Both the position numbers and the translations under genes were made by a program. The notes beneath the pieces were generated by a model that saw only the letters and a list, made by a program, of their open reading frames with translations, was not told the origin of the DNA and made no database searches. Below, piece after piece: positions 3,144-19,515 of a stretch of DNA of 64,000 nucleotides. This DNA comes from Synechococcus sp. CCY 9618. GTDB taxonomy: Bacteria > Cyanobacteriota > Cyanobacteriia > PCC-6307 > Cyanobiaceae. The DNA is taken from assembly GCF_019038415.1 (NCBI RefSeq), contig NZ_JAFKRG010000047.1, forward strand, positions 1-64,000. Direction: 5' to 3'. Every line of letters starts with the position of its first letter. Position 1 is the first letter of the stretch.

Positions 3144-4277
3144 TTACGTCTCCAACAAAAGAATACGAAAGATTTGCTTTGATGGACTGGGATAGTCCCA
3201 TTTACTGAGAGTCGGCTCATTAGAGGACTTTTCCGCAAGAAAGTCATTAAGCACGCGACCTATATCCGTCTCTACTGGTGCAACATCATAGACTTGTCCG
3301 AAGCGCATACGCCCCCTCTGGCGATCACCAATATTCAAGACTTTAGTGCCAATCAAAGGCGCTTCAATAACTCCACTAGAAGAATTACCAACCAAAGCAT
3401 CAAACCAATGCAAGGCCGCAATGTATCGCTGTTGACCTAATGAAGGAACAAACCAACATTGAGATGAATATTTCTCACAAAAAGACTGAATTAAGGACGC
3501 GATTTCGTTTCCACCCTCGTCGGCATTGGGATGGGTGAACAACAGATGAGGTGGACTGGGATGTTGTTGAAAGATTGTTTCCAAAGCCTCAAGCAAGGCC
3601 ACAAGACCAAGTTTACCAAGATCGGCAGCCAATGTCTCTGGGTGATAAGTCAAAAGGATATTGAACGAACCAAACTCAAAACCTGTAGACGCCTCAAACT
3701 CTTCACGAGTAAGAGTCAGTGGCTCCTGAAGTGCGTCAAGAATCAGAGGCCCAACACAATGGCACAGCATAGGATTGGCACCCATTGCCAATATCCGCTG
3801 AAGATAAGGCTCAGCTGCAGTGAAATGCCACGACGCCATCTGTGTAATGGAATGGCGCAAAGCATCATCAATTGCACCTTCGGTAGTTTCGCCCCCATGA
3901 AGGTGAGCTATGGGAATCCGGGCGAAATGAGCCGCAACTGCAGCCGCAAATACTTCATAGCGATCACCGAGGAGAATGACAGCATCTGGATGCAGCTTCT
4001 CAAAAGACTTGGCAAATCCGATCAAGGCTTGAGCAGTAAGTTCAGCGATGCCAAGATTTTGCTCAAAATCCAAGGATACATAGTCAGCAATCTGAAATCC
4101 ATCGGATTCAATTTCTTCGATTGTATAGCCATGCCTTGGGCTCAAATGAGTTCCAGTAACCAGAATGAGAAGCTCATGCTGAGAAGATTCAAGGATTAAT
4201 CTCAGCAGATTACGAAGCAACCCATACTCTGCTCGGCTTCCTGTTACAACAAGAATGCGGCGAAGACGAGGATTCAT
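3144..4277 (-). CDS. legG: Hydrolysing UDP/GDP-sugar 2-epimerase, legionaminate type
   Basis: The 377-residue product opens with RILVVTGSRAEYGLL, the signature of NeuC/LegG hydrolysing 2-epimerases. These release the nucleotide and invert C2 of the N-acetylated sugar. HLHGGETTEGAIDD near residue 125 and GNSSSGVIEAP near residue 300 match the nucleotide-binding site of the family. In the Campylobacter pathway LegG acts on GDP-2,4-diacetamido-2,4,6-trideoxyglucose and gives 2,4-diacetamido-2,4,6-trideoxymannose. It overlaps the synthase gene upstream by 4 bases (ATGA at 4274-4277), so translation is probably coupled. Family members that make sialic acid look alike, so substrate assignment rests on the neighbours. 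Confidence 0.88.
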   Translation of the reverse strand: MNPRLRRILVVTGSRAEYGLLRNLLRLILESSQHELLILVTGTHLSPRHGYTIEEIESDGFQIADYVSLDFEQNLGIAELTAQALIGFAKSFEKLHPDAVILLGDRYEVFAAAVAAHFARIPIAHLHGGETTEGAIDDALRHSITQMASWHFTAAEPYLQRILAMGANPMLCHCVGPLILDALQEPLTLTREEFEASTGFEFGSFNILLTYHPETLAADLGKLGLVALLEALETIFQQHPSPPHLLFTHPNADEGGNEIASLIQSFCEKYSSQCWFVPSLGQQRYIAALHWFDALVGNSSSGVIEAPLIGTKVLNIGDRQRGRMRFGQVYDVAPVETDIGRVLNDFLAEKSSNEPTLSKWDYPSPSKQIFRILLLET

Positions 4278-5284
4278 TGCAGAGACTCCTCAATCATGTC
4301 ATCAGCGCGATAGGAGTAGCTTGCCCTACGGCCAAGAAGCTGATCCCAATGCATCGGAGAAATGCCATGGCCTGGCCGCTTACAAGCCAAGTTTATAGGC
4401 GTTAAGAGTTCTCCAGGTTTAATGCATTGTGCCGCCACTATTGAACGGCGAGCAGCAACTCTCGTTTCAAGTTCCTCCTTGGAGGGTTTCTTGATGCCAT
4501 CACCCATGGCGAGTTCAACGGCCCGGATTGATCGAACCATGGCTTTTAGTTGATCTGGTTCAAGACTGGCCCGATGATCAGGGCCTGGAAGATCTCTGCT
4601 GATGGTGATATGCTTCTCAATCACCGTTGCGCCAAGAGCAACGGCTGCAATCGTGATTTCGTCTCCGAGGGTATGGTCTGAATAGCCAATGGCCACCCGG
4701 CATGCTTCCTGGATGGACAGCATGGCTCTGAGGTTGACAGTCATCGCAGGAGCTGGATAGAGGCTGGTGCAATGAAGCGCTGTGATTCGATCCGGGGGGC
4801 ATCCAGCTTCCTCAAGAGCGTTCAGGCTGGCCTTCACTTCATCGAGATCGGCCATTCCTGTTGACAGCAAAATCGGCAGACCAGAACGGGCAGCAACCTT
4901 CAATAGTGGCAGATTCGTGAGATCTCCCGATGGTATCTTAATTCGCTGCACTCCGATACTGATTAAAAACTCCATATCCTCGATGCTAAAACCAGTGGAC
5001 AAGAATTCAATTCCGTGATTCGCACAATCGCCCTTTAGGATTTTATGCTGCTCCCAGTTTAGCTCCAAACGTTTGAGCATCTCAAACTGGCTACCAGCCC
5101 CATCATTGATTTCCTGATAAGCTGCTTTAGCCGCATCTTTGGTAACCAATGCCTCTGCAGAAAACGTCTGGAACTTAACGGCATCACAACCTGCCTCAGC
5201 AGCGGAAACGATCAGCTGCTTTGCCAACTCCATATCTCCGTTATGGTTGACACCAGCTTCGGCAATGATAAAAACGGGCATCAT
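4274..5284 (-). CDS. legI: Legionaminate/sialate synthase (NeuB family)
   Basis: The product (336 residues) condenses the released mannose-type sugar with phosphoenolpyruvate to form the nine-carbon nonulosonic acid. AEAGVNHNGD near the start and VKFQTF are NeuB TIM-barrel motifs. IGYSDHTLG and EKHIT sit in the middle of the barrel. The C-terminal part (KRPGHGISP) is the antifreeze-like SAF domain. I chose the ATG at 5284 because it forms an ATGA overlap with the stop of the acetyltransferase upstream and because the family starts right at PVFIIAEAG. An upstream in-frame Met would add eight residues without family support. Confidence 0.9.
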   Translation of the reverse strand: MMPVFIIAEAGVNHNGDMELAKQLIVSAAEAGCDAVKFQTFSAEALVTKDAAKAAYQEINDGAGSQFEMLKRLELNWEQHKILKGDCANHGIEFLSTGFSIEDMEFLISIGVQRIKIPSGDLTNLPLLKVAARSGLPILLSTGMADLDEVKASLNALEEAGCPPDRITALHCTSLYPAPAMTVNLRAMLSIQEACRVAIGYSDHTLGDEITIAAVALGATVIEKHITISRDLPGPDHRASLEPDQLKAMVRSIRAVELAMGDGIKKPSKEELETRVAARRSIVAAQCIKPGELLTPINLACKRPGHGISPMHWDQLLGRRASYSYRADDMIEESLQ

Positions 5285-5928
5285 TTTGATTCTTTGGATA
5301 AAGGCCATCCCATCACCCGCTTGCCAGCGCCAACTATTGTTTCAGATGGCAACACAAGACCCTCCCGAACGATAGAACCGCTACCAATAAAGCTAGCAGC
5401 ACCGATGCTAACTCCTCCATTGATAAGTACGCCAGTGCTGATGTGACAATGATCACCAATAATCGCATCATGCTCAATCAATGCCTTGCTATTGATGATG
5501 CAATGACTTCCCACGCTTGCACCGGCATTGACAATCGCTCCATGCCCAACCGTCGTGCCGGGTCCCAGCGATGCATGACGACTGACAAAGCCATGCGCTG
5601 ATACGATTACTGGCGTGATGAAGTCAAGCGCTTGAAGACGTAACGCCAGATCTTGTCTCTTCGTTGCTGACCCTAGATGCCCCATTGCAAGGATTGCCCC
5701 ATCCGCAAAGCCGCGAAGATGGTCCAGATTTTCGTCGGATCCAAGGACCGGATATCCGAAAATTTTGGCTCCAATCTCAGTTGACTGACCCACAAGACCG
5801 ACAATCCGCCAATCAGAAGCAGACTCAATGATGTCAATCAAAGCGCGAGCATGACCGCCGGAACCGATCAGCAAAAGCCGATTTGAGTTTCTCTCTTTCA
5901 AGCTTAAAGTGGCCAACTTGGCAATCAT
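5281..5928 (-). CDS. legH: NeuD/PglD-type sugar N-acetyltransferase (LegH role)
   Basis: The 215-residue protein has an N-terminal Rossmann-like part (LLLIGSGGHARALIDII) and a C-terminal hexapeptide left-handed helix (repeats such as VGHGAIVNAG and IGDHCHIS, roughly residues 110-190). This is the layout of PglD, NeuD and LegH, which acetylate the 4-amino group made by the preceding aminotransferase step. The likely catalytic His is in IEHDAIIGDHC near residue 145. It is the first gene of the AT-richer half of the island and overlaps legI by 4 bases. About 240 bases of scar-like sequence separate it from legC. In sialic acid clusters the same family O-acetylates, so the N-acetyl role is inferred from the legB-legC context. 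Confidence 0.82.
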   Translation of the reverse strand: MIAKLATLSLKERNSNRLLLIGSGGHARALIDIIESASDWRIVGLVGQSTEIGAKIFGYPVLGSDENLDHLRGFADGAILAMGHLGSATKRQDLALRLQALDFITPVIVSAHGFVSRHASLGPGTTVGHGAIVNAGASVGSHCIINSKALIEHDAIIGDHCHISTGVLINGGVSIGAASFIGSGSIVREGLVLPSETIVGAGKRVMGWPLSKESK

Positions 5929-6172
5929 CCGACTCTAGCTTCGCTGGGGGCATTGAGAATGGGTGAACAAAATTAACTTCATTACTTTGCCTGGGATCCA
6001 ATCGCTTCCGCTGTATTCCAGCTCTTGCAATCGACAAGAATAAGATCTGCCTGGACTGAGCAGGCGTGCGGTCCAAGCGCGAATCACAGATCGATTACAA
6101 GCACATTGACCTGCACCCCGAACACCACCCAGGGCATCGAAACGGATCTTGCCGCCCGTCGCAAAGCCTGCC
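5929..6172. other. Junction between GC-rich and AT-richer halves of the island, no intact gene
   Basis: No complete gene is visible here. Just left of the legC stop, the reverse strand in another frame reads QPWLRQALRRAARS, which would suit the lost C-terminal helix of LegC. Further left are short reading frames with no family resemblance. Composition drifts from GC-rich to AT-rich across the stretch. I read it as a recombination junction that joins two halves of the pathway from different sources. Confidence 0.5.
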
Positions 6173-7381
6173 TCAGCCATGGCTGATCAGCAGCTGCGGA
6201 CTGCTGGGCAGATTGATCAGGCGCTCCGCTGCCTCGAGGGCCCGATCCAGGGGGCCAGCCGGGGCTTCGCGATACATCGGCAGCGTGGAGAGCGGCTGCC
6301 ATACCGGCCGTAGCAGCAAACCCTCGGCATGGGCACGTTCGAGCAGAGCCAGACGCTGGCGGGAGGCCAGCGCAACATCCTCGGCGGTGAAGCGAAGCGT
6401 GGCCAGCCAGTGATTGACCCTGCAACCGGCGGGGGCCTCCAGCAGCTCCACGCCCTCCAGGCCCCTGAAGGCCTCCCGATAGCGCTCCTGGAGCAGCCGT
6501 TTGCGCTCCAGGCGACTGGCCAGCACCTCGAGCTGGGCAACGCCGAGGGCCGCATTGAGGTTGGGCAGGCGATCGTTCCAGCCGACCGCATCGTGCTGAA
6601 ACTCCCAAGGATGGGGCAGCTTGGCTGTGGTGGAGAGGTGGCGGGCCCGCTGGGCCAGGGCTTCGTCGTGGGTGAGCAGGGCGCCGCCGCCCCCTGTGGT
6701 GATCAGCTTGTTGCCGTTGAAGCTCAGAGTTCCCACGCTGCCGAAGAGCCCGCAGTGGGTGCCGCCCCGCCAGCTTCCCAAGGCCTCGGCCGCGTCCTCG
6801 ATCACCGGCAGCTCCCAGGCCCTGGCGATGGCCAGGATCGGCTCGATCTCGGCCGGCATTCCGAACACATGCACCGGCAGGATCGCGGCGATGCGGCGGC
6901 CGCTCTGGCAGTTGATGACCGTGGAGCCCCGGCGTTCCGCCAGCTCCTCCAGGCGGATCCGGAGGGCCTGGGGCGAGAGGCCCAGGCTTTCGGGCTCAAT
7001 GTCCACGAAGTGGGGAATGGCCCCCAAGTGCGCTGCGGCGTTGGCGGTGGCCACGAAGCTGATCGGTGGCATCAGCACCTCATCGCCCGGACCCACCCCC
7101 ACCAGATTGAGCGCGAGCCGCAGGGCCACGGTGCCGTTGGCAACGGCCACCACATGGGACGCGCCGGTGGCGGCAGAAAGCTCCCGCTCGAACACCTCCA
7201 CCCAGCGGCCGGCCGTGCTCACCCAGCCCGTGTTGATGCAGTCCTGCACGAGCTCCGCAGCGCGCGTATCGCTGAAGTCCGGTTCATGGAGGGCAACCAC
7301 CGCTTTCCTGCTGAAGGGTCCGATCACCGTGCGGATGCGCTCCAGCACCATCACGGCAATGGTCTGGGGATCGCTGGTCAT
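6173..7381 (-). CDS. legC: PLP-dependent sugar aminotransferase (LegC, DegT/DnrJ/EryC1 family), 3' end altered
   Basis: LegC transfers an amino group from glutamate to the 4-keto sugar made by LegB. The 402-residue protein shows GDEVLMPPISFVATANA (about 99-115), the cofactor-contacting VIEDAAEALGS (Asp196) and the Schiff-base lysine in SFNGNKLITTGGGG (Lys225). All are standard for the DegT/AHBA-synthase fold. The C-terminus ends LPSSPQLLISHG, about 15 residues short of relatives. A shift of frame at the repeated ctgctg around 6188-6193 would restore DQPWLRQALRRAA. This may be a real frameshift or a sequencing error. The core fold and active site are complete. It lies 24 bases downstream of legB. 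Confidence 0.88.
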   Translation of the reverse strand: MTSDPQTIAVMVLERIRTVIGPFSRKAVVALHEPDFSDTRAAELVQDCINTGWVSTAGRWVEVFERELSAATGASHVVAVANGTVALRLALNLVGVGPGDEVLMPPISFVATANAAAHLGAIPHFVDIEPESLGLSPQALRIRLEELAERRGSTVINCQSGRRIAAILPVHVFGMPAEIEPILAIARAWELPVIEDAAEALGSWRGGTHCGLFGSVGTLSFNGNKLITTGGGGALLTHDEALAQRARHLSTTAKLPHPWEFQHDAVGWNDRLPNLNAALGVAQLEVLASRLERKRLLQERYREAFRGLEGVELLEAPAGCRVNHWLATLRFTAEDVALASRQRLALLERAHAEGLLLRPVWQPLSTLPMYREAPAGPLDRALEAAERLINLPSSPQLLISHG

Positions 7382-7405
7382 GGTCTTGCTCCCATTGCCG
7401 CGGCC

Positions 7406-8407
7406 TCAAATGGCATAACGACCCGGCCGATAGCGGCCCAAATGGCCAGGATCGGCAAACCAGGCCGCGGTGGCCGCCAGGCCCCGACGGAAACCCTCGG
7501 GCCCGCCATAGGCCGGCTCCCAACCGGTGAGCTGGCGCAGCCGGGTGCTGTCGCCGAAGAGGCGATTCACCTCGGATCCCTCCGGCCGGAGCCGCTCCCC
7601 TTCGGTGGCGATGGTGATCTCCACCCCCATCACCTCGGCGATCAGGGCGGCGGTGTCGCCGATCGAGATCTCGAAGCTGCTGGCCGCATTGAGCACCTGA
7701 CCCACCACACCGCCCGAGCGCTCAACCGCCAGAAAGGCGGCGCAGGTGTCGCTCACGAAGTTGAAATCCCTGGTGGGGGTGAGGGCCCCCAAGCGGATGC
7801 TGCGCTGACCGGCGACAATCTGGGTGATGATCGTGGGGATCACGGCCCGGGCGCTCTGGCGTGGTCCGTAGGTGTTGAAGGGACGCAGCACCACCACGGG
7901 GGTTTCAAAACTTCGCCAGTAGCTGAGGGCCAGCTGGTCGGCCCCGATCTTGCTGGCGGCGTAGGGCGACTGGCCCACCATGGGATGGTCTTCCGTGATC
8001 GGAACGAACTGGGCGGTGCCGTAGGTCTCGCTGGTGGAGGTGTGGATCACCCTTTCCAGGCCAAGATCCCGGGCGGCCTGCACCACGTTCAGGGTGCCAT
8101 GGATGTTGGTGTCGACATAGCTGGAGGGCGCCACATAGCTGTAGGGAATCGCGATCAGGGCCGCCAGGTGGAACACCGTGCCGCAGCCCCGCATCGCCTC
8201 CCGCACGCAGAGCGGGTCCCGGATGTCACCCAGCACCAGCTCCAGGTCTGCCCCGGGATCGGCCGGAAGCGTGTCGAGCCAGCCGTGGCTCCCGATCGAG
8301 TTGTACTGGCAGAACGCCCTCACGGGTCTCCCCTCGGCCAGCAGGGCTTCCACCAGATGGGAACCGATGAACCCATCGGCTCCGGTGACCAGGGCCCGTG
8401 GGGTCAT
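7406..8407 (-). CDS. legB: NAD-dependent nucleotide-sugar 4,6-dehydratase (LegB)
   Basis: LegB removes water from GDP-GlcNAc (Campylobacter route) to give the 4-keto-6-deoxy sugar, the first committed step. The 333-residue extended SDR protein has the NAD-binding GADGFIGSH at the N-terminus, TSTSETYGTA for the catalytic Ser/Thr and SPYAASKIGAD with the YxxxK pair near residues 152-156. The segment YNSIGSHGWLD near residue 38 is characteristic of the LegB/PglF-short group. It starts six bases downstream of ptmA and is followed closely by legC. UDP rather than GDP specificity cannot be excluded from sequence. The presence of ptmE points to GDP. Confidence 0.88.
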   Translation of the reverse strand: MTPRALVTGADGFIGSHLVEALLAEGRPVRAFCQYNSIGSHGWLDTLPADPGADLELVLGDIRDPLCVREAMRGCGTVFHLAALIAIPYSYVAPSSYVDTNIHGTLNVVQAARDLGLERVIHTSTSETYGTAQFVPITEDHPMVGQSPYAASKIGADQLALSYWRSFETPVVVLRPFNTYGPRQSARAVIPTIITQIVAGQRSIRLGALTPTRDFNFVSDTCAAFLAVERSGGVVGQVLNAASSFEISIGDTAALIAEVMGVEITIATEGERLRPEGSEVNRLFGDSTRLRQLTGWEPAYGGPEGFRRGLAATAAWFADPGHLGRYRPGRYAI

Positions 8408-8412
8408 GGTGA

Positions 8413-9213
8413 TCAGAGGGTCCAGCCATCATCCACGATCAGGTTCTGCCCGTTGATGGCCCTGGCCCCCTCCGAGAGCAGGAACACGATGGTGGCAGCG
8501 ACATCAGCCCCCTCGAGCATGCCGATGTTGGTGCAGTCGGCCCGGTAGCGCTCCAGAAAACCAGCCGGCTGCTGGTCGAGGATGCCGCCGGGGCTCACGC
8601 AATTGACCCGGATCCCCTGGTCGCGGTGGTACTTCGCCAGCCAACGGCTGATCGCGATCACTCCGGCCTTGATGGCGGCGTATTCCACCGGGGAGCCCAT
8701 GGCGGTACCGGCGTAGTGATGAAACTTCGGGGCCGCAACCCCCTGGATCGAGGCCACGTGGATGAGGTCGCCGCCGCCGCAGGCGGCGAAATGGCGCAAC
8801 AGACATTGGGAGAAAAGGATGGCCCCCCCCAGCTGGGCCTGCAGATCCTCGGCCAGATGCACCTCAGAAAGCTGCTCGAAGCAGGCCCCCCACCCCGCGG
8901 AGCGTGGATAGGCCGCATGGACGGCCGCCTCGACCCCGCCAGCGGCCGCAAGGGCCGCATCCAGACACGCCTGGATGCCGGCAGCCCCCCGCAGATCCGC
9001 CACGATCCGGTGGTGCGGCCAGCCCGCCAGGCATTCGCCCACCCGTTCCAGGGCGGCCGGATCCAAATCGGCCACCAGGGGGATGCCGCCGGCCCGGGCC
9101 ACCGCCAGCGCCGTTGCGGCGCCGATCCGACCGGCGCCGCCGCTGATCAGCACCCTTCGGCCGGCCAGCAGGGATCCGTCGGAAGCGCCAAGGGGCGGTT
9201 CGGGCATGGTCAT
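8413..9213 (-). CDS. ptmA: Short-chain dehydrogenase, PtmA-like
   Basis: This is a 266-residue classical SDR. The cofactor loop is VLISGGAGRIGAATA, the VHAAYPRS segment follows, and the catalytic YxxxK is EYAAIK near residues 170-175. HAAYPRS followed by GACFEQL is typical of the oxidoreductases found in ptm/legionaminate clusters. In C. jejuni PtmA works with PtmF at the beginning of the reconstituted CMP-legionaminate route. The exact chemistry of the pair is not visible in the sequence. The gene overlaps ptmB by 4 bases (ATGA, 9210-9213) and is followed six bases later by legB. Confidence 0.82.
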   Translation of the reverse strand: MTMPEPPLGASDGSLLAGRRVLISGGAGRIGAATALAVARAGGIPLVADLDPAALERVGECLAGWPHHRIVADLRGAAGIQACLDAALAAAGGVEAAVHAAYPRSAGWGACFEQLSEVHLAEDLQAQLGGAILFSQCLLRHFAACGGGDLIHVASIQGVAAPKFHHYAGTAMGSPVEYAAIKAGVIAISRWLAKYHRDQGIRVNCVSPGGILDQQPAGFLERYRADCTNIGMLEGADVAATIVFLLSEGARAINGQNLIVDDGWTL

Positions 9214-9926
9214 GGCCGTGGCCGCTGTGGTGAGGCGAGGAGGTGTGGCGCCTGCTCCATAAGGAAGGTGGCAATGCTGAAATCCAGGGCATCATCGATG
9301 TCGATGGCCCGGGCCACCGGCACCTCCACCCCCCGCACCACCCCAGCCCAGAGTCCGGTGGCCTCGCGGATGTAGGTCGGTCTGGTCGCGTAGGCCACCG
9401 TGGCCAGATCGAACACCGCCGAGGCATCCTGACGGCGGCTGACCCCATCGCCGGCATTCACGGGCCTCACACACCCCTCAGGATCGGCAACAACCATGTT
9501 GAACCAGGGGTTGCGGCGGGCTGCCGACATCGTGAGCACCAGATCCGTGGAAGCCGTGAGGGCCGCCAGGCAGCGCTGCGCATCGACCGCCGAGCGGAGC
9601 GGAGCCGTGGCCGGCAGGCTCAGGAAGCGCTCAAAGGGCCCCACCTCCGCCTCCACCCAGGCCACGGCATGGCGCCAGGCCAGCCACTCCGGCGCGGTAT
9701 CGGTGGCCAGCTCCGCGGGGCGCTCGATCACCCGGGCCCCATACTCTCTGGCCACGGCAGCGATCTCACCATCCTCGGTGGACACGAAGATGCGATCGAT
9801 CTCCTCGAGGGCTGCCGCCACCCGGATGCTGTGGGCCACCAGGGGCAGCCCGGCCATCGGCAGCAGGTTCTTGCGCGGCAGGCCCTTGGAGCCACCCCGG
9901 GCGAAGACAAACGCATGGGTGGTCAT
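9210..9926 (-). CDS. ptmB: CMP-legionaminic acid synthetase (LegF/PtmB type)
   Basis: The 238-residue enzyme belongs to the CMP-sugar cytidylyltransferase family, which uses CTP to activate nonulosonic acids for transfer. FARGGSKGLPRKN at the N-terminus is the CTP-binding signature. IFVSTEDGEIAAVA and LPATAPLRS follow in the usual places, and DIDDALDF near the C-terminus carries the metal-binding acids. Its closest analogues in cluster context are Campylobacter PtmB/LegF. It overlaps both neighbours by 4 bases, so ptmF-ptmB-ptmA are probably translated as a coupled unit. Sialate-specific NeuA proteins share the same motifs. Confidence 0.88.
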   Translation of the reverse strand: MTTHAFVFARGGSKGLPRKNLLPMAGLPLVAHSIRVAAALEEIDRIFVSTEDGEIAAVAREYGARVIERPAELATDTAPEWLAWRHAVAWVEAEVGPFERFLSLPATAPLRSAVDAQRCLAALTASTDLVLTMSAARRNPWFNMVVADPEGCVRPVNAGDGVSRRQDASAVFDLATVAYATRPTYIREATGLWAGVVRGVEVPVARAIDIDDALDFSIATFLMEQAPHLLASPQRPRP

Positions 9927-10900
9927 CGGCGGGAAGCCCGGGCCTGACGCACGAGCTCCAGAACGGCCAGCCCATCCTCCACGCTGACCAGCGGCTCGGC
10001 TTCTCCCCGGCAGCAGGCCAGAAAATGCTGGAGCTGCCGCCGGTAGCGGTCCTCACCCCCATGGGGGAAAGACTCCTCGTGCACCACACCGTGCCGATCC
10101 ACCCAGCTCAGGCAGCCCCTGATCAGATCCCAGTGGATCTCCCCCTCACTGCCCCGCAACACCAGCGACCGCGCTGAAGGGCGCGTGCAGAAATCCAGAT
10201 GAAGACTCGCCGGTTCCCCGGCGCCCGTACGGAGCAGCAGAAGCGCCCGATCTTCCACATCGATCTCCAGCAGGCCCGAGCAGGACAGATCAGCCGCCGT
10301 GACGGTGAGCGGGCCCAGCAAGGACCGCAGCAGGTCGAGGTCATGGCTGAGTTCGAGCAGCACCCCTCCGCCCAGCTCGCGCCGGGCCGACACGCCCCTG
10401 CAGTAGTCAGTCCCAGGGCGCCAGTCGGGCAGCCAGGTGCCGCAGCGACCATGGGCACTCACCCAGGTGCCGATCCTTCCGGAAGCCAACCAGGCCTGGA
10501 GCACCGCCAAGGCCGGATCGTGGCGCAGCACGTAGCCCACCAGGATGGGGAGGCCGTTCTCCGCAGCGGACTGCAGTGGCAACCAGGCCGCCAGGGGTTC
10601 CTCCCCCGTGCCCAGCGGCTTCTCGATCAGGAGCGCCACTCCGGCGGCGGCCAGCTGCACGGCCTGGGCGCAGTGAAGCGGAGCCGGGCTGGCCACGATG
10701 GCCGCCTCCGGCTGCCAGGCCAGAGCCTCCGCCAGGCTGCTGAACTGGGCAACGAGAAGGTCCTCCTCGGGGCAGCCAGGTCCATGGCCGGAACGCCACG
10801 CGGCCAGCTCAGGCGATGGATCCAGCTCGTGCAGGAGCCGCAGGTGCCGCCGTCCGATGCTGCCGAGGCCGCAGACGAGGATGCGCCTCGGCGGGGCCAT
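9923..10900 (-). CDS. ptmF: Gfo/Idh/MocA-type oxidoreductase, PtmF-like
   Basis: The 325-residue product begins RRILVCGLGSIGRRHLRLL, the NAD(P)-binding fingerprint of the Gfo/Idh/MocA family. It has LIEKPLGTGEE near residues 90-100, the conserved EKP motif with the catalytic lysine. The second half is the alpha/beta substrate domain (GVLLELSHDLDLLRSLLG around residues 180-195). Order and spacing (ptmE, then ptmF, ptmB, ptmA) match my recollection of the C. jejuni Cj1329-Cj1332 genes. There PtmF acts with PtmA in the early amino-sugar part of the pathway. The oxidised substrate here is not shown by sequence. The gap to ptmE is two bases. Confidence 0.82.
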   Translation of the reverse strand: MAPPRRILVCGLGSIGRRHLRLLHELDPSPELAAWRSGHGPGCPEEDLLVAQFSSLAEALAWQPEAAIVASPAPLHCAQAVQLAAAGVALLIEKPLGTGEEPLAAWLPLQSAAENGLPILVGYVLRHDPALAVLQAWLASGRIGTWVSAHGRCGTWLPDWRPGTDYCRGVSARRELGGGVLLELSHDLDLLRSLLGPLTVTAADLSCSGLLEIDVEDRALLLLRTGAGEPASLHLDFCTRPSARSLVLRGSEGEIHWDLIRGCLSWVDRHGVVHEESFPHGGEDRYRRQLQHFLACCRGEAEPLVSVEDGLAVLELVRQARASRR

Positions 10901-10902
10901 GG

Positions 10903-11973
10903 TCAGGACAGCTCCTCGATGCGGGCCCAGTCCTCATGGGCCTGCTGCAGGGTTTCGGGCCGGCCGATGTCGCACCAGTACTCATGGATCGGGCAGACCG
11001 CCACGCGTTGGTGGGCGGCGCGGGCTGCCAGCAATAGGGAGGGCATGTCCATCGCTTCCCCGGGGGGAATGAGATCCAGGAGTGAGGGCTCCAGCACATA
11101 GATGCCGGCGTTCACCTGATGGCGCAGCACGGGCTTCTCTCGGATCCCCACCAGATCCACCCCTTCGGCCTCCACCACCCCGAAGGGAATCACCACGTCA
11201 TGGCTGCGGACGCACATGGTGGCCGCAGCGCCATGGCTGGCGTGAAACTCCAGAAGTTGGGCCAGGTTCAGGCGGGTGAGCACATCACCGTTCATCACCA
11301 GCAGAGGACTCCCCCGGCGGGCTTCCTCGGGCAGCAGTTGGAGGGCACCGGCCGTGCCGAGGGGCGTGGTCTCCTCAATGTACTGAATTCGGACCCCCCA
11401 CCCGGATCCGTCCCCGAAATGGTCGCGGATCTGTTCCTTGAGGTGGTTCACGGCGAGATGGAAATCCTGCAGGCCCGAGGCGATGCACTGCTCCAGAATC
11501 GACTCGAGAATCGGCTTGCCCGCCACCCTCAGCATCGGCTTGGGACAGTGATCCGTGAGTGGGCGCAACCTGGTGCCCCGCCCCCCCGCCATCAGCACCA
11601 CGGGATTGGGCAGCCCTGCGGCCTGCTGGTCCAAAAAGTCGTCGAGCAGATAGAGGCCGACGAGGTGGCCGCCCCCATCGATGACCGGGAGCTGATCGAT
11701 CGAATGGCGCCGCAGCAGGGCCATCGCCTCTGTGTGAAGCATCGATCCCCTGGCCGCCTGAAACTGGCGCTGCACGGCTCCGCTGGCGGGGCTGGCGAGA
11801 TCCATACCCCGCAGCAGGCAACGGCGGATGTCGCCATCGGTGAGGGTGCCGACCAGGCGCCCCTTGCCATCCACCATCAGGGCGATCCGCACCCCACCCC
11901 TGTCGATGGCCTTGATGGCTTCGCGCAGACTGGCCCCGGTGGCAATGCGGCAGGCGTCGAGCTGGGTTCTCAT
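10903..11973 (-). CDS. ptmE: CBS-domain nucleotidyltransferase, glucosamine-1-phosphate guanylyltransferase type (PtmE)
   Basis: The 356-residue protein has two N-terminal CBS repeats (about residues 1-120, with LVGTLTDGDIRRCLL and LPVIDGGGHLVGL). They are followed by a sugar-phosphate nucleotidyltransferase domain with VVLMAGGRGTRLRPLTDHCP at about 125 and the later acidic pair in MNGDVLT. This CBS-plus-nucleotidyltransferase arrangement is that of C. jejuni PtmE, which makes GDP-glucosamine and so commits the sugar to the GDP-linked legionaminate route. The CBS pair may sense nucleotides. It is the second gene of the tight operon, six bases after the transporter. Mannose-1-phosphate guanylyltransferases with CBS domains are the main alternative. 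Confidence 0.86.
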   Translation of the reverse strand: MRTQLDACRIATGASLREAIKAIDRGGVRIALMVDGKGRLVGTLTDGDIRRCLLRGMDLASPASGAVQRQFQAARGSMLHTEAMALLRRHSIDQLPVIDGGGHLVGLYLLDDFLDQQAAGLPNPVVLMAGGRGTRLRPLTDHCPKPMLRVAGKPILESILEQCIASGLQDFHLAVNHLKEQIRDHFGDGSGWGVRIQYIEETTPLGTAGALQLLPEEARRGSPLLVMNGDVLTRLNLAQLLEFHASHGAAATMCVRSHDVVIPFGVVEAEGVDLVGIREKPVLRHQVNAGIYVLEPSLLDLIPPGEAMDMPSLLLAARAAHQRVAVCPIHEYWCDIGRPETLQQAHEDWARIEELS

Positions 11974-11979
11974 CGCCGA

Positions 11980-13851
11980 TCAGCCCTCCACAGGGTTCGA
12001 TTCTCCAGCCTGGGAGGCCCCTGCCATTCGTCGGAATCCGGGGCTTGTGACCTGCAGTTCGGCATAGGTGCCGATGCCATGGATCTGGCCTCCCTGAAGC
12101 TCGATGATCCTGTGGCAACGCTCCAGCGTGCTCAGGCGATGGGCCACCATCACCAAGGTATGGTCCTGGCCGAGCTGCCAGAGCGAATCGATCACCGCCT
12201 GCTCCGTAAGGGTGTCGAGGGCACTGGTGGCCTCATCGAGGATCAGCACATCCGCCTGCTTGTAAAGAGCCCTGGCGATGCCCAGGCGCTGGCGCTGGCC
12301 GCCGCTGAGGCGCACGCCCCGCTCTCCTATCGGAGTGTCGAATCCCTGGGGCAGGGCGGTGATGAAGTCTTCTGTCTGGGCCGAGGCCGCCGCCCAGGCC
12401 AGGCGGTCGCGGTTGATCGTCTCCGGGGCGACACCAAAAGCGATGTTTGCGGCGATCGAGGCATCGGCCAGAAAGATGGTCTGGGGCACGTGGGCCAGGT
12501 GACGCTGCCAGGCAGGTCGCCGATCGATCGAACCAACCCGTTCCTCCAGGGGCAGCCCATCCACCAGAATCTCACCCCGGCTGGGAGACAGCAGCCCCAT
12601 CAGCAGATCCAGCAGGGTGCTCTTGCCACTGCCCGTGGCCCCCACCAGGCCGATCCACTCCCCGGGACGGATGGTGAGATCGATCCCTTGGAGCACGGCA
12701 ACGCCGCCCTGGTGGCAGAAATCCACCTGGCTGAACTCCAGACTCTGCTCAAACGGCAGGGCTTCGGGCAGGACAAGGGGGCAGGCTGGTCTCGAAAACT
12801 CCTGGGGGAGTCGAGTCTGCTCCAGCAGCTCAAGCCCGCCGGCCAGCGCATCTCGGTAGGCCCCCAGATAGGTGGAGGCCCCATACATCTGCTGCACTGC
12901 CGGCAGCAGCCGCTGGAAGCCCAGGGCGATGACCCCCACCGCCGGCAGGGCCGCCACCAACCCGCCGCGGGGCAGGAGCCAAAGCACCGATCCGGCGATC
13001 GCCACCACACCTAACGCTTCAAGCGCAAACCGGGGCAGGCCGGCAACGGTGTCGGCTTCGGCCTGCAGCAGCATCATGGGGCGCTGGACCCGGCGGTAGG
13101 TGTCCACAAACAGCGGCTGGCTGCGATCCAGGAGCACATCGCGGATGGCGCCGAGGCCCTCCTGCTGGGTCTTGAGCGAGCGCTGGCTGTAGTGGTCCGA
13201 AAGTACGCTGATGCGATGCAGACGGCGGCGATTCAGCCCGGCTATGGCCCCATAGGTGGCCAGGAACACGGCCGCCAGTCCCAGGGCCAGGGTTGGCTGG
13301 AACGCCAGCAGTCCCGCCACCAGCACCACCGCCACGATCAGGCCCGAGAGGCCCTGCATCAGAGGAGCCAGCACACCCCGGCTGATCGCCCCCAGATACC
13401 CGAGACGCGTGATCACCTCGCTGCTGTTGCGCGCCAGATGCACGGCATAGGGCTGCTCCAGGGTGCGGCGATAGCCCTCCACCCCTAGGTCGCTTCCGAT
13501 CAGTGCGGAAAGGCGGGCATTCACGTAAAGGTTGGCGGCACGGATCGCTGCGCTGCTCACGCCCGCCGCCATCAGCAGCAGGGTGATGGGCAGGATCAGC
13601 TGCTGAGGGCCACTGAAGCCCAGGGCCTCGGCCACGCTGCGCACCCAGGGCTGGCGCCAGAGCCCGGACGGATCGGAGAGCACCACCAGGAAGGGCACCA
13701 GGCTGGCCACGGTGAGCAACTCGGCGAAGCTGCTCAGCAGCATCAGCGCCACCAGCAGGGCCAGCTGGACCCTGCGCCGGGGCTGCACATGGCCCCAGAG
13801 CAGGCGCAGCAGAGTGGGGTAGCGCGTCTGGCTGAGGTCGGGGGGGCTCAC
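11980..13851 (-). CDS. ABC transporter, fused permease and ATPase (PglK/MsbA-like flippase)
   Basis: The 623-residue half-transporter has about six membrane segments in residues 25-340 and an ATPase domain after about 370. The Walker A is GATGSGKST, the signature is LSGGQRQRLGIARALY, and the Walker B is VLILDEATSALD. PglK and MsbA have this layout and move lipid-linked sugars or lipid A across the inner membrane. As first gene of the legionaminate operon it probably flips a lipid-linked glycan carrying the sugar. The start is a GTG at 13851 that overlaps the stop of the ribH pseudogene by 4 bases (GTGA). Specificity is inferred from context. Confidence 0.85.
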   Translation of the reverse strand: MSPPDLSQTRYPTLLRLLWGHVQPRRRVQLALLVALMLLSSFAELLTVASLVPFLVVLSDPSGLWRQPWVRSVAEALGFSGPQQLILPITLLLMAAGVSSAAIRAANLYVNARLSALIGSDLGVEGYRRTLEQPYAVHLARNSSEVITRLGYLGAISRGVLAPLMQGLSGLIVAVVLVAGLLAFQPTLALGLAAVFLATYGAIAGLNRRRLHRISVLSDHYSQRSLKTQQEGLGAIRDVLLDRSQPLFVDTYRRVQRPMMLLQAEADTVAGLPRFALEALGVVAIAGSVLWLLPRGGLVAALPAVGVIALGFQRLLPAVQQMYGASTYLGAYRDALAGGLELLEQTRLPQEFSRPACPLVLPEALPFEQSLEFSQVDFCHQGGVAVLQGIDLTIRPGEWIGLVGATGSGKSTLLDLLMGLLSPSRGEILVDGLPLEERVGSIDRRPAWQRHLAHVPQTIFLADASIAANIAFGVAPETINRDRLAWAAASAQTEDFITALPQGFDTPIGERGVRLSGGQRQRLGIARALYKQADVLILDEATSALDTLTEQAVIDSLWQLGQDHTLVMVAHRLSTLERCHRIIELQGGQIHGIGTYAELQVTSPGFRRMAGASQAGESNPVEG

Positions 13852-14141
13852 AGGGCCAGGGCCTTCATCAGGCTGCCCACTTGAAGGGCCTGCCAGTGAT
13901 CACTCCAGCCAGGATTGGTGCTGATCCCGACCACCAAGGCTTGGATCACCTGCGTTCTATCGATGCTGCAAGAGACGAAAGGACTGTTCATCCCGCTGCA
14001 CTTGCCTACTAAGTCGAGATTTTGCTGGCACCGAGAAAGCACCCAACAGCGGTGCCCTTGACCAGATCGTTGTACGAGATGCCTGGCGTGGCCATAGGTA
14101 TTCCAGCAAGGGTCGGCGGTGCTCCGTTCAAAAACCGCCAA
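13848..14141 (-). pseudogene. ribH: Degraded second copy of ribH (lumazine synthase)
   Basis: Three pieces of lumazine synthase survive, in order. The first is a TTG start followed by AVFE, matching TVFE of the intact copy at 16421. Next, in another frame, LAGIPMATPGISYNDLVKG aligns with [19 protein letters not shown]. Last, back in frame, GISTNPGWSDHWQALQVGSLM aligns with [21 protein letters not shown]. The gene is therefore frameshifted and missing its middle third, including the catalytic region. It follows the second psbZ copy at the same 4-base distance as in the intact block. It can have no enzyme activity. Its 3' end still provides the overlap on which the transporter starts. Confidence 0.88.
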
Positions 14142-14145
14142 GACC

Positions 14146-14334
14146 TCACACCACCAGCAGGCTCATCCCCCAGTTGACCAGCACCAGAGCCACCCAGGCG
14201 GCGCCGCCGAGCAGGATCAGCCGGTTGGAGCGGCCGCTGTCCTCGCTGCTGGCGTAGAGCACCGGCACCGCCACGATCAGGGCGAAGGAGAGCACCACCA
14301 GGGCCAGAACGGTGAGGGTGTTGAGGATCTGCAT
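14146..14334 (-). CDS. psbZ: Photosystem II protein PsbZ, second copy
   Basis: This is a complete 62-residue PsbZ, a two-helix membrane protein at the edge of photosystem II next to CP43. The two hydrophobic helices are residues 3-25 and 39-61, joined by the conserved [12 protein letters not shown] loop. It differs from the copy at 16426-16614 at five positions only (15, 45, 46, 53 and 60). All five are conservative changes in the membrane helices. The start is the ATG at 14334, where family similarity begins. It lies 85 bases beyond the rmlC stop and just before the ribH pseudogene. Nothing shows whether it is expressed. Confidence 0.92.
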
Positions 14335-14419
14335 GGGCGGGGAGGCTCGAGGCCGGATCAGGCAGCGTGGGGGATCCTGCCACGCGGGGCGGGGACTGAC
14401 CCGGTGCCGCTGGCATCCT

Positions 14420-15034
14420 TCACACGTTGTGGGGTGACGGATCGTGGGCACTGAACAGATCCCCGGCCGCCTCCAGGGCCTCCAGGCCTAGGGCCCCGGC
14501 GTCCTTGGGGGCCAGCAGGGGTTCGTAGGGAGCCGGAAGCTCCTGGAGGGGCCAGTCGATGCCGAGGGCCGGATCATTCCAGGCCAGAGTGCGTTCGCAC
14601 TCCCGGCTCCAGTACCCGGCGGTCTTGTACTGCACCTCCGCCACCGCGCTGAGGGTCAGAAATCCATGGGCGAAGCCCACCGGAACCCAGAGCTGGCGGC
14701 TGTTCTCGGCGCTGAGCCGCTCCCCGACCCACTGGCCCAGGGTGGGGGAGCTCTGGCGCAGGTCCACCACCACGTCGAAGACCTCCCCCAGGGTGCAGCG
14801 CACGAGCTTCCCCTGGGGATGGGGCTGCCGCTGGAAATGGAGACCCCGCAGCACCCCCTGAATCGAACGGGAGTGGTTGTCCTGGACGAAGTCGGGGGCG
14901 TGGGCCTCCTCACACCCAAGCACCTCGGCGAAACGGCGCCGGTTCCAGCTCTCGCTGAACCAGCCCCGGTCGTCGGCATACACCGCCGGCGTGAGCAGCA
15001 GGGGACCCTCGATGGCCAGGAACTGCACGTTCAT
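14420..15034 (-). CDS. rmlC: dTDP-4-dehydrorhamnose 3,5-epimerase
   Basis: RmlC epimerises dTDP-4-keto-6-deoxyglucose at C3 and C5, the third step to dTDP-rhamnose for surface polysaccharides. The 204-residue cupin shows [15 protein letters not shown] near residue 22, FVQDNHSRS near 49 and GVLRGLHFQ near 60. The catalytic His is in GLHF, and the [12 protein letters not shown] strand follows later. The C-terminus runs 10-15 residues past the usual end. It overlaps rmlA by 4 bases (ATGA, 15031-15034). rmlB and rmlD are not in this window and would have to be elsewhere. Confidence 0.93.
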
Positions 15035-15939
15035 CGTTGGGGCTCCAGGGCCAGGTGGTCGCTGGCGGCTTCCTGCAGCAGCCGCAGCAGGTAGTCGCCG
15101 TACCCGGACTTCTTCAGGGGCAGGGCCAGCCGCTCCAGCTGGTCGTCCTCGATCCAGCCCAGCCGCCAGGCCACCTCCTCCGGGCAGCCCACCTTCAGGC
15201 CCTGGCGCTTCTCCAGGGTGAGGATGTAGCTGGCGGCCTCGTGCAGGGAATCGGGGGTGCCGGTGTCCAGCCAGGCCATGCCGCGGCCCATCAGTTCCAC
15301 CCGCAGCAGGCCGTCATCGAGATAGAGCTGGTTGAGATCGGTGATCTCGAGTTCCCCCCGGGGGGAGGGCCGCACCTGGCGGGCCCGCTCCACCACGGTG
15401 TGGTCGTAGAAGTACAGCCCCGTGACGGCATAGCGGCTGCGTGGCGCCGCCGGCTTCTCCTCGATGCTCAGCACCCGGCCGTCCTCGCTGAACTCCACGA
15501 CCCCGTAACGCTCGGGATCGCGCACCGGGTAGGCGAACACCGTGGCACCGGGCCGTTCGCCGTTGGCCCCCTGCAGCTGGGGGATCAGGTCGTGGCCATG
15601 GAACAGGTTGTCGCCCAGCACCAGGGCCGCCGGGGCCCCATCGAGGAAATCGGCCCCGATCAGGAACGCCTGGGCCAGCCCGTCGGGGCTGGGCTGCACC
15701 GCGTAGCGGATCGTCATGCCCCAGCCGGAACCGTCGCCCAGCAGCCGCTCGAAGCAGGGCCGGTCGGTGGGGGTGGTGATGATCAGCACCTCGCGGATCC
15801 CCGCCAGCATCAGGGTGCTGAGCGGGTAGTAGATCATCGGCTTGTCGTACACCGGCACCAGCTGCTTGCTGACAGCGGTGGTGAGGGGCGCCAGCCGGGT
15901 GCCGCTGCCACCCGCGAGGATGATGCCGCGTCGGTTCAT
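15031..15939 (-). CDS. rmlA: Glucose-1-phosphate thymidylyltransferase
   Basis: RmlA makes dTDP-glucose from glucose-1-phosphate and dTTP. The 302-residue protein starts [18 protein letters not shown], the nucleotide-binding loop. It also has [27 protein letters not shown] with the metal-binding Asp near 110, and [15 protein letters not shown] near 220. Length is normal for the short RmlA group. The ATG overlaps the stop of ribH (ATGA at 15936-15939), so a sugar gene is translationally coupled to a riboflavin gene. That is odd and fits a recombination event at the ribH 3' end. Confidence 0.95.
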
Positions 15940-16421
15940 GACTGCGGCGGCAACGAGCCCATCAGGCTGCCCATCTCCAGGGCCTGTAGGCCGTAGCTCC
16001 AGCCCAGGTTGCTCTTGATGCCGGCCCGCTCCAGAGCCTGCTGCAGGGTGTCAGTGGTGAGCACCCCGAAGATCACCGGAACGCCCGTCTCGCGAGCGAC
16101 GGCGGCCACCCCCTTGCTCACCTCGGCGACCACCACGTCGAAGTGGGGTGTGTCGCCGCGGATCACCGCCCCCAGGGTGATCACCACCTGGTAGCGGCCG
16201 CTGGCCGCCAGCCGCTGGGCCACCAGGGGGATCTCGAAGCTGCCCGGCACCCAGGCCACGTCGAGCTGGGCGCTCTCAGGGGTGACGTCAATGCCGTGGC
16301 GGGAGAGGGAATCCAGGCAGCCGCTGAGCAGCTTGCCGGTCACCAGATCGTTGAACCGGGCCACCACCAACGCGATGCGCAGACCCGCGACATCGGTGAA
16401 GCGACCTTCGAAAACCGTCAA
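15936..16421 (-). CDS. ribH: 6,7-dimethyl-8-ribityllumazine synthase (intact copy)
   Basis: RibH joins the ribitylaminouracil and the four-carbon phosphate to give the riboflavin precursor. The 161-residue protein shows [32 protein letters not shown] around residues 58-72, [15 protein letters not shown] with the catalytic His near 90, and the C-terminal [16 protein letters not shown]. It appears to start at TTG (16421), 4 bases after the psbZ stop. Family similarity begins exactly there and the degraded copy uses the same TTG. It is complete, so it is presumably the working copy. Confidence 0.93.
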
Positions 16422-16425
16422 GGGG

Positions 16426-16614
16426 TCAGACCACGAACAAGCTCATACCCCAGTTGAGCAGCACCAGGGCCACCCAGACCAGCCCCCCGAGCAGGATCAG
16501 TCGGTTGGAGCGGCCGCTGTCCTCGCTGCTGGCGTACAGCACAGGCACCGCCACGATCAGCGCGAAGGACATCACCACCAGGGCCAGCACCGTCAGGGTG
16601 TTGAGGATCTGCAT
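16426..16614 (-). CDS. psbZ: Photosystem II protein PsbZ (copy next to intact ribH)
   Basis: This 62-residue, two-helix subunit helps stabilise photosystem II supercomplexes and the contact with light-harvesting proteins. Helices are at residues 3-25 and 39-61 around [12 protein letters not shown]. The start is the ATG at 16614. It is divergent from mutS (start 16705), with 90 bases between them that must hold both promoters. Because the adjoining ribH and mutS are intact and in the order I know from other picocyanobacteria, I take this as the native copy. The duplicate is at 14146-14334. Confidence 0.94.
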
Positions 16615-16704: not shown

Positions 16705-19515
16705 GTGGACGGTCCGATGGCCAGGGAAGTCCAGCAGCAGCTGACGCTCGCGGACGACCCGGGCCTGCAGGGGGACCTGTTCGGGGACGAGGTCTCCGGG
16801 GTCGCCGTCGAACCGGCGGCGCCGGAAGGCCCTGAAGGCAGCGCCCTGGACGAGCAGGCGCTGCTGGCCGACGCCAGCGCCCGGCCCCGGCGGCGCCGGC
16901 CCAGTGGCAAGAACGGGCTGGAGGGCGACCCGGCCTCCAGGCCGCCGGCCGAATCGGTGGCGGAGGCGCCCATTGGTCCCGGGGAGAGCAGCGAGGACGA
17001 CCTGCCCCGCTGGCACCACCATTCCCTGGTGGATCCGGCTGCCCTCACCCCGGTGCTGCGCCACTACGTGGAGCTCAAGGCGGCCCATCCCGACCGGGTG
17101 CTGCTGTATCGCCTGGGCGACTTCTTCGAGTTCTTCTTTGAGGACGCGATCCTGCTCTCGCGCCTGCTGGAGCTCACCCTCACCGGCAAGGACGCCGGCA
17201 AGGCCCTGGGACGGGTGCCGATGGCCGGCATCCCCCACCACGCCGCCGAGCGCTACTGCGCCGACCTGGTGCGCCGCGGCCTGAGCGTGGCCCTCTGCGA
17301 CCAGCTGGAGGCCACCCCCGCCAAGGGGGCCCTGCTGCGCCGGGGCATCACCCGGGTGCTGACGCCCGGCACCGTGCTGGAGGAGGGCATGCTGGCCGCC
17401 CGCCGCAACAACTGGCTCTGCGCCGTGGTGCTCGAAGGGGACGGCAGCCACGCGGGCCGCTGGGGGCTGGCCGTCGCCGATGTGAGCACCGGCGAGTTCC
17501 GGCTGACCGAACGCGGCGGCAGCGGCGCCCTGCACCAGGAGCTGCTGCAGCTGGAGCCCGCCGAGGTGGTGTGGCCGGGCCACGCGGAGCCGCCCCCCTG
17601 GTGCCCCGAGGGCCTGCGGCTCACCCCCCTGGCCCGCACCCCCTTCGAGGCACCGGAGGCAGGCGCCCTGCTGCGCCGCCGCTTCCGCCTGGCCAGCCTC
17701 GACGGCCTGGGGCTGGGGGAGGCCCCTCTGGCGCTGCGGGCCGCCGGGGGCCTGCTGGCCTACCTGGACACCACCCAGGCCGAACCTGCGGCGATCCCGC
17801 TGGAGATGCCGAAGCTCTGGCACGCGGGCGACCAGCTGGTGCTCGACGCCCAGACCCGCCGCAACCTGGAACTCACCCGCACCCAGCTGGGCGGCTCCCT
17901 GCAGGGCTCCCTGCTGTGGGCCCTCGACCGCACCGCCACCGCCATGGGCGGCCGCTGCCTGCGGCGCTGGATCGAGGCGCCCCTGGTGGAGCGCGCGGCG
18001 ATCCTGGAGCGGCAGGAGGCCGTGAGCGAGCTGGTGGCCCGGCGGCCCCTGCGGCTGGGCCTGCGCCGGCTGCTGCGACCCATGGGCGACCTGGAGCGGC
18101 TGGCGGGCCGGGCCGGCGCCGGCAGCGCCTCGGCCCGCGACCTGGTGGCCCTGGCCGACGGCCTTGAGCGGCTGCCCCGGCTGGCGGCTCTGGTGGCCCC
18201 CTGCCACAGCGCTCCACTGGTGGCCCTCAAGGGTCCCTGGCCCGAGCTGGCCGCCCTGGCGGAAACGGTGCGCCACCAGCTGGTGGAGACGCCGCCCCTG
18301 TCCCTGAGCGAGGGGGGGCTGCTGCACGACGGGGTCGACCCGGTGCTGGACGGGCTGCGCAACCAGCTCGACGACCAGGAGCAGTGGCTGGCCCGCCAGG
18401 AGGCGATCGAGCGGCGGGCCAGCGGCAACCCCAACCTGCGCCTGCAGTACCACCGCACCTTCGGCTATTTCCTGGCCGTGAGCCGGGCCCGGGCCGCCGC
18501 CGTGCCGGACCACTGGATCCGGCGCCAGACCCTGGCCAACGAGGAACGCTTCGTCACCCCCGAACTCAAGGGCCGCGAAGGGCGCATCCTGCAGCTGCGG
18601 GCCCGGGCCTGCCAGCGGGAATACGACCTGTTCTGCAGCCTGCGACACACGGTGGGGGAAGCGGCCGGGGCGATCCGGGCCGCCGCCCGACGGGTGGCGG
18701 AACTGGATGCCCTGGCCTCCCTGGCGGAGGTGGCGGCCACCGGCGGCTACTGCCGGCCCGAGCTGGGCGAAGGGCGGGAGCTGGTGATCGAGGCCGGGCG
18801 CCATCCGGTGGTGGAGCAACTGCTGGTGGAGGCGAGCTTCACCGCCAACGATCTGCACCTGGCGGCTCCCGGCCCGGACGGGGAACCGGCACCGGACCTG
18901 CTCGTGCTCACCGGGCCCAATGCCAGCGGCAAGAGCTGCTATCTGCGCCAGAGCGGCCTGCTGCAGCTGATGGCCCAGATCGGCAGCTGGATTCCGGCCC
19001 GTTCGGCCCGCCTGGGCATCGCCGACCGCATCTTCACGCGGGTGGGGGCAGTGGACGACCTGGCCAGCGGCCAGTCCACCTTCATGGTGGAGATGGCCGA
19101 AACCGCGAACATCCTCCACCACGCAACCCCCCGCTCCCTGGTGCTGCTCGACGAGATCGGCCGCGGCACGGCCACCTTCGACGGCCTCTCAATCGCCTGG
19201 GCCGTGGCGGAGCACCTGGCCGACGGCATCGGCGCCCGCACCATCTTCGCCACCCATTACCACGAGCTCAACGAACTGGCCGAGCTGCTGCCCAACGTGG
19301 GCAACGCCCAGGTGCTGGTGGAGGAGACCGGCGACGACCTGGTGTTCCTGCACCGGGTCTGCCGGGGCGGCGCCAGCCGCAGCTATGGCATCGAGGCGGC
19401 CCGGCTGGCGGGGGTGCCGGCCTCGGTGGTGCTGCGGGCCCGCCAGGTGCTGGGCCGCATCGAGGCCAACAGCCATGTGGCGGTGGGCCTTCAGGGAGGG
19501 GCGAGGGCGGCCTGA
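16705..19515 (+). CDS. mutS: DNA mismatch repair ATPase MutS
   Basis: The 936-residue protein recognises mispairs and recruits the repair machinery. A poorly conserved, Pro/Arg-rich stretch of about 100 residues comes first. The mismatch-reading F-x-E motif is Phe140-Phe141-Glu142 in [11 protein letters not shown]. The connector, lever and clamp regions follow. The ATPase has GPNASGKS near 737-744, LVLLDEIG near 811 and [11 protein letters not shown] second in-frame ATG at 16717 is an equally good start. Its last 25 bases overlap the end of the convergent cbiC gene. It is divergent from psbZ. Confidence 0.96.

Follow-up and report, generated by a model that had tools for sequence, protein, structure and literature searches.

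Tycheposons are tRNA-associated islands of Prochlorococcus, in which a tRNA gene borders a variable region, the cargo lies 3' of the tRNA, and a tyrosine recombinase is encoded. The legionaminic and nonulosonic acid gene clusters of the Campylobacter kind represent a known pathway, and surface glycans are likely phage receptors. Replacement flexible genomic islands are described as unrelated surface-glycan clusters that occupy one chromosomal place between conserved flanks, and a swap by homologous recombination has been proposed for them (Lopez-Perez et al. 2014, PMC4033161). The locus studied here resembles the islands of that description in having glycan genes of differing content between conserved borders, but it differs from them in two ways: it contains two copies of the anchor formed by leader, psbZ, and ribH, which have undergone reciprocal decay, and its edge has taken in two core rml genes. 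The locus is probably a variant of such a replacement island. The main text of a 2020 paper on marine picocyanobacteria (PMC7522525) contains neither ribH nor psbZ, and a search of the open-licence literature, with subscription journals outside its scope, found no paper linking psbZ/ycf9 with ribH, or a Synechococcus island with tRNA-Gly and a glycosyltransferase.

We consider it probable that a replacement glycan island lies here between psbZ-ribH on the left and the promoter, tRNA-Gly(GCC), and GNAT gene on the right, and that the left anchor was duplicated and then decayed reciprocally. The window, which is the whole stretch of 64,000 nucleotides that was analysed (contig C47 of genome G000), has on its minus strand the order psbZ1-ribH1-rmlA-rmlC-psbZ2-ribH remnant-ABC exporter, followed by a nonulosonate cassette (Table 1). 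The start codon of ribH1 is TTG, 4 nt after psbZ1. Gene calls of the codon model were unreliable in the lower-GC islands, and positions there were read by tblastn and a second caller.

Table 1 Features of the locus in the window (contig C47) and at the far end of the island (contig C18) of G000
Feature	Position	Strand	Remark
NeuC-family UDP-GlcNAc 2-epimerase	3144..4277	-	TIGR03568 above cut-off
NeuB-family nonulosonate synthase	4274..5308	-	TIGR03569 above cut-off
NeuD-family acetyltransferase	5281..5928	-	TIGR03570 above cut-off
LegC-family aminotransferase	6173..7381	-	TIGR04181 above cut-off
LegB 4,6-dehydratase	7406..8407	-	TIGR04180 above cut-off
Short-chain dehydrogenase	8413..9213	-	NF006619 oxidoreductase above cut-off; PtmA model below cut-off
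Cytidylyltransferase	9210..9926	-	nearest model PseF, below its cut-off
Gfo/Idh oxidoreductase	9923..10900	-	PtmF-like
CBS domains and nucleotidyltransferase	10903..11973	-	PtmE-like
ABC exporter	11980..13851	-	PF00005 above cut-off; nearest NCBIfam models HepA, MsbA, PglK, all below cut-offs
GTGA overlap, ribH2 remnant stop/ABC exporter start	13848..13851	-	plus strand reads TCAC; GTGA also in G002
ribH copy 2, decayed remnant	13848..14141	-	open frame, 97 codons
psbZ copy 2, intact	14146..14334	-	in 16/16 clade genomes
psbZ2 leader	14335..14434	-	retains psbZ leader motif of other genomes (CACAA-N-TTGTG type)
rmlC	14420..15034	-	TIGR01221 above cut-off
rmlA	15031..15939	-	TIGR01207 above cut-off
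ATGA overlap, ribH1 stop/rmlA start	15936..15939	-	plus strand reads TCAT; identical in 16/16 clade genomes
ribH copy 1, intact lumazine synthase	15936..16421	-	PF00885 and TIGR00114 above cut-off
psbZ copy 1, intact	16426..16614	-	PF01737 Ycf9
mutS	16705..19515	+	divergent; left neighbour of psbZ
tRNA-Gly(GCC)	C18 13684-13755		with same promoter motif
GNAT gene	C18 13765-14169		adjoins tRNA-Gly

The sequence-only reading had claimed that both sugar cassettes start on a ribH stop codon, and this was exact: read directly from the letters, the ABC exporter begins over the stop of the ribH remnant in GTGA, and rmlA begins over the stop of the intact ribH in ATGA. However, exact 4-base overlaps occurred in 9 of the 36 same-strand neighbour pairs in the window (based on 53 rough gene calls, with a start within 40 nt in 25 of the 36 pairs), including rmlA-rmlC and pairs inside the second cassette, so two such overlaps are not improbable and alone prove nothing. 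This frequency is what ordinary operon tightening would give, in which any gene after ribH drifts to a 4-base overlap and its sugar identity is meaningless, and the explanation is valid for the overlap itself. As an account of the locus it is very unlikely, because it leaves unexplained the glycan neighbours of ribH, the tRNA-bounded island, the duplicated anchor, and the split rml operon. The non-random part is the identity of the genes after ribH and not the overlap, and for this identity operon tightening was refuted by the ribH survey.

The gene ribH was found in 39 of 42 genomes of the window's genus, and the next same-strand protein gene was a glycan gene in all 39. The neighbour was rmlA in 16 genomes; in 19 it was an initiating sugar transferase (PF02397), and the other four had a group-1 glycosyltransferase (G010), an rmlB-kind dehydratase (G024), a family-2 glycosyltransferase (G027), and a gene of G037 that was assigned by eye from its likeness to the Pfam-scanned G027 protein. 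The island genes code for exposed glycans by their Pfam and NCBIfam matches, as in a replacement island. The ribH end is probably the left border of a swappable surface-glycan block in these small freshwater cyanobacteria.

A recurrent docking point at the ribH 3' end had been proposed, and the survey upheld it as a recurrent left glycan border that is used by several gene types, but the codon itself did not hold up as a docking element, since 14 of the 16 blocks in the window's clade start after the psbZ2 stop without a recognisable ribH2. The stop codon of ribH could still be a preferred insertion point at which rmlA and the exporter arrived separately, and different glycan genes do overlap it elsewhere: in the wider family it is overlapped by rmlA in RCC307 (ATGA), by an ABC ATPase in BSA11S (ATGA) and CS-1329 (GTGA), and by a glycosyltransferase with a TTG start in 1G10, and sugar transferases have possible GTG starts over it in G001, G005, G036, and G039. 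But the distances from ribH to the next gene are otherwise highly variable, and no integrase match was found on C47 or C18, so we regard separate arrivals at this codon as unlikely. Site-specific docking at the codon was rejected as the main cause in view of the variable distances, the common 4-base overlaps, and the psbZ2-bounded blocks.

At the right border, Rfam and ARAGORN identified a tRNA-Gly(GCC) gene that follows the ribH stop by 61-95 nt in the same orientation in 39 of 117 family stretches (this total excludes 17 records recognised as duplicates and 5 class-level outgroups, and unrecognised near-duplicates may remain). The tRNA was further off or reversed in 26 stretches; 5 loci have it reversed. 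In 52 it was not within the stretch, many of these stretches ending before the island does, and there the right anchor is a presumed one. In 35 of the 39 adjacency loci, a -35 box of the TTGAC type begins at a position between -3 and +33 nt relative to the ribH stop, and in four loci (L126, L127, L143, and L081) the ribH stop codon lies within this -35 box. Judged by its sequence, the element upstream of tRNA-Gly is a putative promoter of it. The conserved element after ribH in marine loci had been considered as a terminator or an unknown RNA, which Rfam and ARAGORN ruled out by assigning it to the tRNA gene. In G070, a class-level outgroup from another family, the tRNA is located at +71 after ribH with TTGACA before it, and because this outgroup shares the adjacency, the empty ribH-tRNA junction was taken as ancestral.

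The GNAT gene was found in 72 of 139 stretches (3 duplicate records among them) and was convergent in all 72, and where ribH and GNAT were on one contig, in 21 genus genomes, they were 1.4-35 kb apart and convergent in all 21. Within the genus, the tRNA and the GNAT gene are found side by side where the island ends (G000, G008, G023, and G040). In G000 the island is split over C47 and C18, whose joining is an assumption, and the island-facing side of C18 has methyltransferase, epimerase, and aminotransferase genes. The conserved borders are mutS-psbZ-ribH on the left and, where reached, tRNA-Gly(GCC)-GNAT on the right, with some loci rearranged; GNAT is left of the island in L113, L123, L132, L134, L137, and G049. 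These two borders would give the surface-glycan exchange of freshwater picocyanobacteria a chromosomal address. In three genomes (L054, L055, and L041), a reversed tRNA-Gly(GCC) lies directly behind a sugar transferase, as a transferase-tRNA unit.

In the window's genus, the island occupies the interval from the ribH stop to the promoter of tRNA-Gly. A border formed by tRNA-Gly(GCC) is also what a tycheposon-like element would have, and Prochlorococcus loci with a filled interval do carry extra DNA 3' of tRNA-Gly, that is, on the other side. But the cargo of the window's genus lies 5' of both the tRNA and its promoter, and integrase-family matches in G000 were on C9, C11, C14, and C48, with none on C47 or C18, the two contigs with the island ends (the gap between these contigs is uncovered). 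Integration of such a tRNA-directed element at tRNA-Gly is accordingly a very improbable source of the island. The replacement island offers a simple spatial reason for sugar genes abutting ribH. If ribH and the promoter of tRNA-Gly were nearly contiguous in the ancestral order, a cassette inserted harmlessly would have to begin at the ribH stop, and the codon-level precision would come from this lack of room.

The segment ribH1-rmlA-rmlC-psbZ2 is common to all 16 clade genomes (the window genome and 15 relatives), down to the overlap. The sequence-only reading held that two cassettes had been joined independently at the same codon; this was not supported, since the ribH-rmlA joint was inherited by the whole clade and the second ribH end is due to a second leader-psbZ-ribH anchor. 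The rmlA of the window was the only one found in G000 at E<=1e-60. In eight genus layouts outside the clade, a conserved gene, c0, is directly before rmlA, and rmlD is behind. In the clade, rmlA-rmlC is cleanly absent from this place, with a 55-nt gap from c0 to rmlD (G000, G014, G023, G008, and G038, the last from an assembly without ribH), and G002 has 2.1 kb of other DNA between c0 and rmlD. The clade's rmlD-rmlB is still beside c0, and the rmlD and rmlB of G000 are on C2. The tree analysis showed that clade rmlA groups with genus rmlA (100/97) rather than with the ribH-linked rmlA copies from most other genera. The old operon without rmlA-rmlC, together with the genus-type rmlA, indicates that rmlA-rmlC was moved to the ribH end or was replaced there by a genus-type copy. 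The stop codon of rmlC lies inside the psbZ2 leader motif CACAACGTGTGA, so it is supplied by the leader and marks the joint. If the move is true, core biosynthesis genes can leave their own operon for an island edge. In the rmlC tree, RCC307 rmlC was placed beside the clade (93/79), which counts against our preferred explanation. A derivation of clade rmlA from an ancient, unrelated linkage of ribH and rmlA was not favoured; ribH-linked rmlA does occur in other lineages, but clade rmlA falls within the genus group.

The psbZ-ribH duplication in the window is real. The two psbZ copies have 85% nucleotide identity over 228 nt and the ribH tails 70% over 67 nt; the ribH2 remnant gave no Pfam or NCBIfam match. 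Across the clade the losses of anchor genes are reciprocal: psbZ1 is intact only in G000, G002, and G014, with the other 13 genomes keeping a worn 3' end, and psbZ2 is intact in all 16, but ribH2 is recognisable only in G000 and G002, of which G002 retains more. In the other 14 genomes, homology to the second block of the window stops near the psbZ2 stop. What follows psbZ2 is an ABC-2 permease/Wzt in 10 genomes, a sugar transferase in 2, an ABC exporter in 2, no cargo in 1 (G040, with tRNA and GNAT after psbZ2), and an unassigned gene in 1 (G012), which means different genes in the same place, as in a replacement island. Since border genes duplicate and then sort reciprocally, readings of psbZ/ribH gene order and copy number can mislead.

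The origin of the second anchor was approached with trees from which duplicates, L046, and L069 had been left out. In the psbZ and leader-psbZ trees, psbZ1 and psbZ2 stand apart; psbZ1 falls with G031/G033, the sister lineage of the clade (98/77), and psbZ2 forms its own group. This placement would suit a foreign second anchor, in which a donor psbZ-ribH-cassette allele was added beside the resident one by a single crossover to give stacked alleles. A parallel case that fits import is G007, where a second psbZ-ribH, in decayed form, lies about 10 kb downstream, beyond the GNAT gene. This second copy is nearest to G010 (85% nt) and G024 (84%), against 78% to the genome's own ribH (tree 99/95), which favours import there. 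But AU tests, with duplicates and 7 long-branch rows dropped, did not reject psbZ1 and psbZ2 as one clade (p-AU 0.32 and 0.35), and an own origin of the G007 copy was likewise not rejected (p 0.11). The closest sequences to the ribH2 remnant of G002 are ribH1 copies of the clade (8 of the best 8), which favours a local copy; the remnant of the window is too worn for placing its origin. So we consider a foreign source of the window's second anchor possible but doubtful. Local copying and import of anchors may both be routes.

For the replacement island with a duplicated anchor, the following course would fit the data. In the clade ancestor, rmlA-rmlC would have left the rmlACDB operon for the ribH end, and a duplicate of the leader-psbZ-ribH anchor would have formed on their far side, giving psbZ1-ribH1-rmlA-rmlC-psbZ2-ribH2-island. 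The redundant anchor genes would then have decayed, with psbZ1 gone in most genomes and ribH2 lost or reduced to a remnant. We infer that the anchor was copied in this lineage at the time of the rmlA-rmlC move, and that homologous recombination within the anchors exchanges the cassettes. A further reading is tentative and has the odds against it: a tRNA-bounded island might grow on the tRNA promoter side, where the stop of ribH and the -35 box of tRNA-Gly can have bases in common, by copying its own left anchor, so that stacked anchors would record successive cassette gains and rmlA-rmlC would have been pulled out of their operon into its edge.

The sugar genes are presumably expressed from psbZ promoters, and each leader is a possible promoter for what follows. 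Coupling of psbZ-ribH expression to the sugar genes is plausible, judging from the gene order, the overlaps, and a promoter/terminator consensus scan that gave nothing, with no terminator-like site between the genes. A palindrome-like CACAA-N-TTGTG is conserved in the leaders of many loci about 100 nt before psbZ (14420-14434 in the window), followed by a TGTGAGAAT-like element, and could be a regulator site and a promoter near the divergent mutS.

Behind the exporter, whose orthologue in G002 is broken, positions 3144-11973 hold a near-complete legionaminic/nonulosonic acid gene set. It resembles the Campylobacter-kind clusters in its LegB, LegC, NeuD, NeuB, and NeuC matches above cut-off and in its PtmA-like gene and the two genes next to the exporter, which we take to be PtmE-like (CBS domains and nucleotidyltransferase) and PtmF-like (Gfo/Idh oxidoreductase). 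It differs from them in that the ABC exporter at its head overlaps a ribH remnant, and its product is a predicted one. Below window position 6000 the GC content is about 0.47, down from about 0.67, so the nonulosonate cassette itself looks composite.

Several minor observations were made on other copies of the anchor genes. Another contig of G022 (contig C4; L046 11602-11688) carries an isolated piece of ribH, roughly its last 30 codons, with about 92% DNA identity to the window ribH over 72 nt. In Synechococcus sp. Tobar12-5m-g (L112), a second frame resembling psbZ (66% identical) lies on the opposite strand, 4.6-4.8 kb after ribH. Cyanobacterial psbZ-ribH loci also appeared in records titled Bifidobacterium breve and Crocinitomicaceae (L097 and L129), which are mislabelled or contaminated assemblies. 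In G002 (L032), about 1.8 kb of DNA is inserted between mutS and psbZ1.
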